32,244 nucleotides of DNA from Desulfarculus sp. (GTDB lineage: Bacteria; Desulfobacterota; Desulfarculia; Desulfarculales; Desulfarculaceae): the NCBI GenBank assembly GCA_016218705.1, contig JACRDC010000089.1, positions 1 through 32,244 of the forward strand, read 5' to 3'. Position numbers and translations under genes: made by a program. The notes beneath the pieces were generated by a model, which was not told the origin of the DNA, did not search any database, and was given only the letters and a program-made list of their open reading frames with translations. Positions 11,157 to 32,244 of this stretch are shown here, one piece after another. Position 1 is the first letter of the stretch. Every line of letters begins with the position of its first letter.

Positions 11157-11204
11157 TCGCGCTTGACCGCCGCTGGCCATCCAAACCATCAGCGGGAGGA
11201 AAAC

Positions 11205-11798
11205 ATGCTGGATTGTCGAGGATTGGCCTGTCCCCAGCCGGTGATAAAGGCCAAGGAACTCCTGGAAGCCCAGGCCCCCCAGGAGGCTCGGATATTGGTG
11301 GACAACCAGGCCGCCAGCCAGAACGTCAGCCGTTTCTTGAACAGCCAGGGCTACCAGGTCATGGTGACGCCCCAGGGCGGCGACTTTCTGCTGACCGCCC
11401 AGCGCGACCAAAGCCTGCCGGTGCAAGAGGCGCCGGCGGCCCAGGCGGCCTGCGCCGGACCCGAGCGGGTGCTGGTCTTCGTCCGCTCCGACACCCTGGG
11501 CCGGGGCGACGAGGCCCTGGGCGCCGGCCTGATGAAGAACTTCCTGCTCACCCTCAAGGAGATGGGGCCGGCCCTGTGGCGCCTGGTCTTTGTCAACGCC
11601 GGGGTGAGGCTGTGCTGCCAGGGCTCCCAATCCCTGCCGGCCTTGCGGGAGCTGGAGCAGGGCGGCGTGAGCATCCTGGTCTGCGGCACCTGCCTTAACC
11701 ACTACGGGCTCTTGGAGCAGAAAGAGGTGGGCGAGACCACCAACATGCTGGACATCGTCACCAGCATGCAGGTGGCCGGCAAGGTCCTCACCATCTAG
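11205..11798 (+). CDS. yedF: YedF: TusA-like plus DsrE-like selenium metabolism protein
   Basis: A 197-residue two-domain protein. Residues 1-70 are a TusA/SirA-like sulfur-carrier domain with the CPxP motif (LACPQPV, Cys9) and an extra Cys4. Residues about 85-197 are DsrE/F-like, with LVFVRSDTLGRGDEALG and the cysteine pair in CGTCLNHYGL. This fusion is the family called YedF, which is found with selenophosphate-utilising organisms and is thought to act in selenium trafficking; its biochemical role is not firmly settled. The ATG follows GGGAGGA at 11194-11200. The structured repeat ends shortly upstream. A selenoprotein gene at 29988 in the same window fits a selenium-using host. Confidence 0.88.
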   Translation: MLDCRGLACPQPVIKAKELLEAQAPQEARILVDNQAASQNVSRFLNSQGYQVMVTPQGGDFLLTAQRDQSLPVQEAPAAQAACAGPERVLVFVRSDTLGRGDEALGAGLMKNFLLTLKEMGPALWRLVFVNAGVRLCCQGSQSLPALRELEQGGVSILVCGTCLNHYGLLEQKEVGETTNMLDIVTSMQVAGKVLTI

Positions 11799-29756: not shown

Positions 29757-29860
29757 GACACACTCCTAATACCAAGTTGCGATCAAACGAGTAGTTTGAT
29801 CGCAACTTGGCATGCGGGCCATGGATGGCTTTGATTGCATATTGGTATAAACAGTGTGTC
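29757..29860. repeat. MITE-like element, family B copy 2
   Basis: A 104-base element with imperfect terminal inverted repeats (GACACACT...TAATACCAA and TTGGTATA...AGTGTGTC). Inside is a perfect 17-base inverted repeat CCAAGTTGCGATCAAAC / GTTTGATCGCAACTTGG (29772-29810, GAGTA loop). Then come GCATGCGGGCCATGGATGGC and TTTGATTGC. On the minus strand it shares about 40 bases with 11030-11156 near yedF, with few mismatches. Both copies lie upstream of selenium-linked genes, possibly by chance. Confidence 0.7.
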
Positions 29861-29987
29861 GCCCAGCCAGGGGCGGCCTTGACCGGCGGCGGCCCCGGCC
29901 TCATGCTTGAAACCGTGGGGAACGGCGGACGCCCTGCCCACCGCTCCCCGCGGCGTTGAGGGCATCAAACCAGCGGAGGCTTTGACC

Positions 29988-30293
29988 ATGCGCCTGGACG
30001 TGGACAACAAGACCCTGGAGTGGCTGCGCCAGCGGGGCGGCCGGGTGACGGTGATTCCCCCCCGGCCGGCGGTGGGCTGAAAGGGCGGCGCGGCGGCGCG
30101 GGCGCTGCTAGAACCGCCTCCGGCCCAGTGGGTGGGGAGCTACGAGCACCACCACCTGGAGGGCGTGGACATCTACCTGCACCCGGGCCTGGTGCTCAGC
30201 GCCCCGGCGCTGACCCTGCGCTGCCTGGGCTTCTGGCGTTTTTCCTGGCTCAGGGTGGAGGGCGTGGTTCCGCCCCAGGCCTGCTGCATCTAG
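29988..30293 (+). CDS. Small selenoprotein, HesB/IscA-like CC/Se-motif type (in-frame TGA)
   Basis: A 101-codon gene with a TGA at codon 31 (30078-30080) read as selenocysteine. GGAGG (29975-29979) lies 8 bases before the ATG. The part before the TGA is MRLDVDNKTLEWLRQRGGRV then TVIPPRPAVG. After it the same frame stays open for 70 codons: KGGAAARALLEPPPAQWVGS, then the LEGVDIYLHPGLVL and LTLRCLGFWRFSWLRVEGVV strands, ending ACCI. The layout (helix, GUKGG turn, then VDxYxxPGLxL and xLRxxGFxxFxxLxVEG) matches my recollection of small HesB-like (seleno)proteins called CC/Se-motif proteins. A hairpin right after the TGA fits a bacterial SECIS. Function is unknown, perhaps redox or Fe-S/selenium related. 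Confidence 0.8.
30081..30111 (+). promoter_or_regulatory. Putative bacterial SECIS element
   Basis: GCGGCG (30090-30095) pairs with CGCTGC (30103-30108), with one G-U pair, around the loop GCGCGGG. The apical loop begins 16 bases after the TGA, within the distance bacterial SelB-binding hairpins require, and carries exposed G residues. The high GC makes other pairings possible. Confidence 0.5.
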
Positions 30294-32109: not shown

Positions 32110-32244
32110 GGCCTGTTAACACAAACTGAGTCCATCGGCGATCAATGCGAAGCTTATGAAGCCGATGAACATCACATCGAGCTTGTCGAAGCGCGAGAAT
32201 ATTCTGCGGAAGCCCTTCAAGCGTCGGAACAAGCGTTCAACTTC
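32110..32244 (-). mobile_element. IS5-type insertion sequence end, continues outside the window
   Basis: GGCCTGTTAACAC starts immediately after CTAG and looks like the terminal inverted repeat of IS5-superfamily elements. CTAG fits the YTAR target of IS5 itself. The transposase C-terminus lies inside. The boundary may be one base further left, in which case the last base of the epimerase stop codon belongs to the IS. Confidence 0.7.
32116..32244 (-). CDS. IS5-family transposase C-terminus (partial)
   Basis: Forty-two residues to the stop at 32116-32118. EVERLFRRLKGFRRIFSRFD then KLDVMFIGFISFALIADGLS and LC. The FRRLK... RFDKLD... ISFALI pattern is the usual C-terminal end of IS5 (IS427-like) DDE transposases, with the E of the DDE triad and the K/R set. 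The rest is beyond the window edge. Confidence 0.8.
   Translation of the reverse strand, partial: EVERLFRRLKGFRRIFSRFDKLDVMFIGFISFALIADGLSLC

Follow-up and report, generated by a model that had tools for sequence, protein, structure and literature searches.

The window analysed here, a stretch of 32,244 nucleotides from Desulfarculus sp. (contig JACRDC010000089.1), very probably harbors at positions 29988-30293 of the plus strand a real and easily overlooked gene for a selenium-containing protein of 101 residues. As judged from the sequence, it is close to certain that the in-frame TGA of this gene encodes selenocysteine (Sec) and that the product belongs to NF041239, the "CC/Se motif family (seleno)protein". 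Since this selenoprotein family has already been catalogued (NF041239; PMC13188914), the gene does not define a new one; it adds a divergent member to a catalogued, nearly uncharacterised selenoprotein family and extends it to a clade in which 18 other loci carry the TGA. The family also gains a probable fold, and the site of IscA Cys35 is indicated as the position of the Sec residue. A standard gene caller would miss the gene or shorten it to 30 residues.

Translation with TGA read as Sec (U) yields an open reading frame with ATG, 30 codons, U31 and 70 further codons up to a TAG, which confirms the frame layout described in an earlier note on this DNA. The GGAGG ribosome-binding site, which had been placed there 8 bases in front of the ATG, is present at 29975-29979, also on the plus strand. 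The Sec codon 31 occupies positions 30078-30080, and the alignment identifies two adjacent cysteines near the C-terminus, Cys99 and Cys100, at 30282-30287. A pattern search in the vicinity of the gene returned no promoter or terminator patterns. We propose that the ribosome would start at the ATG behind the GGAGG and that the UGA at codon 31 would be read by a Sec-tRNA(UCA) brought by SelB, which would recognise a hairpin shortly downstream of the UGA, before translation continued to the TAG. In the resulting protein, Sec31 would replace the first of the two Cys in the CC motif of the family, a position aligned with IscA Cys35, and would be accompanied by Cys close to the C-terminus, as in IscA.

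NF041239 was the sole NCBIfam match of the window protein (E 4.8e-10, 39.4 bits, with Cys for U), and the alignment spans the entire profile (positions 1-91 of 91) and has U or C in the motif, which backs the resemblance to the CC/Se motif family that had been guessed from the sequence. The score is 0.6 bits below the curated cut-off of 40 bits; the nearest relative, L035, scored 39.2 bits in the genome search, in which the TGA was not read as Cys, and most other relatives were above the cut-off. In a 2026 review, NF041239 is entered as a hypothetical protein and a high-confidence prediction, made first for Moorella thermoacetica, with a CxxU motif and one Sec (PMC13188914); in the literature searched, no further paper names the family. 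Pfam gave nothing credible for the window protein or for all 19 aligned members, Rfam reported no family at the gene, and a search of solved structures by sequence returned chance matches only.

Members of the family were found in 17 of the 60 genomes searched, including that of the host, at 20 loci which all belong to the host's taxonomic family, the Desulfarculaceae. Within the phylum sample the family is rare (12 of 395 genomes), and a genome scan with a narrower alignment led to six loci. Exactly one TGA resides inside the match at 19 of the 20 loci and none at the remaining one (L036). The TGA is located at codon 29-31 of the extracted frames and falls into a single aligned column, in which 18 of the 19 loci other than that in the window also have TGA and one (L036) has Cys-Cys, all without frame breaks. 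The host genome possesses a second family copy on contig C95, similarly with a TGA at codon 31. At position 31 the homologues have either U or C, and they run past the TGA instead of ending there; neither of these two refuting results named in the earlier note, nor the third, absence of selA/selB/selC from the genome, was obtained. According to the alignment, the second Cys of the motif is missing in most members, and nearly all members of the Desulfarculaceae branch keep a Cys in the C-terminal region; most relatives have one Cys there and the window protein has two, and a CxC occurs in none of them. In the tree, the window copy and L035 are joined with full support. One further locus, L047 (G189:C42), is a weak family match whose motif, TTGSIG, has neither Sec nor Cys, and perhaps represents a form that has lost the active residue.

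The sequence behind the TGA is under purifying selection in several pairs of relatives. Behind the TGA, three close pairs had dN/dS ratios of 0.10-0.14, a fourth pair had 0.32 and L002/L021 had 0.61; in the two pairs tested silent changes exceeded replacement changes (Fisher P 4e-9 and 2e-6). For the window copy and L035 the frame is intact, and a dN/dS of 0.64 with a weak silent excess (P 0.09) suggests that their clade is evolving faster.

Downstream of the TGA, the window forms a hairpin, GCGGCG[CGGG]CGCTGC at 30093-30108 on the plus strand (loop 30099-30102), with pair probabilities of 0.90-0.95 and a predicted outer stem of 30083-30088 with 30114-30119. The hairpin had been claimed previously and is present, and it covaries in the family; its loop, however, starts 19 nt after the TGA, with 18 nt between, and not at the 16 nt given then. 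It lies shortly behind the UGA and has a G among the first bases of the loop, as a bacterial SECIS apical stem-loop should. By itself the fold of the window is unexceptional for GC-rich DNA (z -0.93), and single-sequence folding energy fails to single out a SECIS element in such DNA. We compared 18 sequences aligned from the TGA with 500 shuffles and with slid controls. All 18 have in common a stem of 7 pairs that closes a 5-nt loop (columns 16-22 pairing with 28-34); 88.9% of its 126 cells are paired (37-56% in the slid controls), a conservation that is partly shared with coding, as the same columns also encode protein. Changes on both sides have occurred in five of the seven pairs, none of the 500 shuffles equalled the pairing or covariation score, and RNAalifold recovered the same 7-pair stem unaided. 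The consensus closing pair is broken in the window sequence alone, which forms a 6-pair stem with the register shifted by one step, unlike its relative L035, in which the hairpin has the regular form. The CGGG loop contains GG without the GGU of many relatives.

The machinery required to insert Sec is encoded in the host genome. Profile searches identified SelB (367.7 bits), SelA (610 bits) and SelD (364 bits), and a tRNA-Sec with a UCA anticodon (TCA in DNA) is present, so that the check for selA, selB, selC and selD suggested along with the earlier reading found all four. SelD is of the Sec type, with an in-frame TGA of its own within GUAAK, the known UxxK site. YedF, already noted as support for selenium use, is encoded in the window at 11202-11798 on the plus strand (TIGR03527, 214.7 bits), outside the selenoprotein gene and as context for it. 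SelB scored above the cut-off in every gene-bearing relative searched except G013, a 71%-complete genome with a SelB fragment. The host genome further contains a tRNA-Sec-like tRNA-Cys (L004 1501-1597; G000:C1:54779-54871) with a GCA anticodon, a long variable arm and a U discriminator base, which is situated between mvhD-like and hdrA-like genes and is of the same type as the selC* tRNAs described in PMC7609411.

If the TGA were a true stop, the remaining sequence would be either a gene in decay or a frame that is open by chance. This is very improbable. It would be compatible with the unexceptional fold of the window alone, with the weakly significant result for the window and L035 after the TGA, and with neutral substitution-only simulations, 20% of which left a 70-codon frame stop-free by chance in GC-rich DNA; against it, the NF041239 match is full-length across the TGA, the TGA column is retained without frame breaks in nearly all other loci, relatives are under selection behind it, and the SECIS hairpin covaries in the family. 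Still less credible is a reading of the UGA as Cys or another standard residue, e.g. by a selC*-type tRNA-Cys. The host does encode the tRNA-Sec-like tRNA-Cys, and some Desulfobacterales have selC* tRNAs with a UCA anticodon (PMC7609411). However, the anticodon of the host's tRNA is GCA, and it thus reads UGC/UGU; among the tRNA-Sec-like hits checked, tRNA-Sec is the only UCA tRNA. Sec insertion is further favored over Cys by the covarying SECIS behind the codon and by the UGA at the known Sec site of SelD from the same genome.

A separate set of relatives carries two consecutive TGA codons at the CC motif. These loci (L048, L071, L072, L073, L075, L076 and L077) were found in seven genomes (G349, G468, G462, G524, G480, G513 and G502) from another order of the phylum, and family-like protein is encoded on both sides of the tandem. 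TGA-TGA is invariant in the seven, at a site occupied by CC, UC or U in relatives. All pairs of the hairpin that follows are kept, one of them by a two-sided change; the seven sequences group together in the tree as one branch with a support of 95/78, and SelA is encoded in all seven genomes. The products are presented here as candidate proteins with adjacent Sec-Sec residues, i.e. a vicinal diselenol. The 2026 review lists one Sec for the NF041239 family (PMC13188914), and an earlier report of Sec-Sec by Haft and colleagues is possible. The branch provides a direct test case for adjacent Sec-Sec residues in bacteria.

With regard to gene neighborhood, in eight loci (L050-L055, L060 and L061) a gene of the Bax inhibitor-1 family lies downstream at a distance of at most a few hundred nt, and five of these loci continue with a POR-type ferredoxin oxidoreductase operon. 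The paralogue on C95 retains the Bax inhibitor-1 neighbor. The window copy lies outside this setting, with two genes for ArsA-type ATPases upstream, which did not recur as a shared neighbor cluster in the relatives, and with a 228-residue frame downstream on the other strand that has no Pfam match. A link to CstA, which is encoded upstream in the window and, in L056, downstream of the Cys homologue, was set aside, as it concerned two loci only. In the spacer that separates the selenoprotein gene from the ArsA-type gene, at 29772-29810, a near-perfect inverted repeat, CCAAGTTGCGATCAAAC...GTTTGATCGCAACTTGG, occurs without a terminator-like T-run. At 32110-32244, the minus strand reads EVERLFRRLKGFRRIFSRFDKLDVMFIGFISFALIADGLSLC*, cut by the end of the window, which we take to resemble the C-terminus of an IS transposase.

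The AlphaFold model of the window protein (pLDDT 86) predicts a fold of the IscA/SufA/HesB type. IscA, SufA and DsrR were among its best matches in the PDB (best Foldseek E-value 3e-3), and VIA-align superimposed the model on IscA (1r94) with Z 8.1 over 83 residues at an rmsd of 3.0; ten IscA-type entries had Z 4.6-8.1, and the unrelated entries below them drop to 2.7. The likeness to HesB/IscA, which the earlier note had guessed from the sequence, is backed by this predicted IscA/SufA fold. A profile alignment with E. coli IscA placed residue 31 over Cys35, weakly so at an hhalign probability of 10.7%. Taken together, the fold, the position of residue 31 over Cys35 and the near-invariant C-terminal Cys suggest an IscA-fold protein with Sec as the equivalent of Cys35. 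The three-cysteine ligand set of A-type carriers, Cys35 plus a C-terminal CxC, is not found in this form; the window protein has Sec31 and Cys99/Cys100.

It might be hypothesized, with an about even chance of being right, that the protein is a relative of the A-type carriers which, by means of one selenol, acts in redox reactions or in the handling of metal or Fe-S clusters; Sec31 and the C-terminal Cys would then serve as partners or ligands. The protein may also be a selenoprotein with a role apart from metal or Fe-S carriers, a plain reductase- or peroxidase-like redox function in which the IscA fold is merely shared, as in DsrR, and to this we assign a considerable probability that stays somewhat short of one half. 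Such a role would fit the place of DsrR among the best fold matches, the missing CxC of IscA and the missing second motif Cys in most members, as well as the Bax inhibitor-1 family genes and POR-type operons next to a number of the relatives; on the other hand, the Sec or Cys at the position of IscA Cys35 and the near-invariant C-terminal Cys of the branch are reminiscent of the ligands of A-type carriers. For the CC/Se family as a whole, we regard it as a balanced proposition that it represents a branch of the IscA-type carrier fold that uses selenium, in which Sec has replaced Cys as the first ligand and the motif occurs as CC, as UC, as U alone (in the window) and as tandem UGA-UGA, which would give Sec-Sec, in the seven genomes of the other order.

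Compared to known systems, the window protein shares with NF041239 the match to the whole profile, the in-frame TGA and a Cys-Cys homologue at that column. It differs in that the window copy, at 39.4 bits, remains just short of the cut-off of 40, and in that the U of most Desulfarculaceae members precedes a residue other than Cys, without CxxU. The HesB-like selenoprotein TIGR01911 (UxGP motif; PMC13188914) has the HesB/IscA fold name and the replacement of Cys by Sec in common with it; however, none of the 19 aligned members matches that profile, even at E 10. DsrR of Allochromatium vinosum (2k4z) has a similar IscA-like fold (Z 7.5, 16% identity), but is not known to be a selenoprotein or to have the IscA cysteines. 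In comparison to the A-type Fe-S carriers IscA and SufA, the window protein has neither a Pfam match nor a CxC, and the identity in structural alignments is 6-10%, whereas the predicted fold, Sec31 at the position of Cys35 and Cys near the C-terminus are shared.
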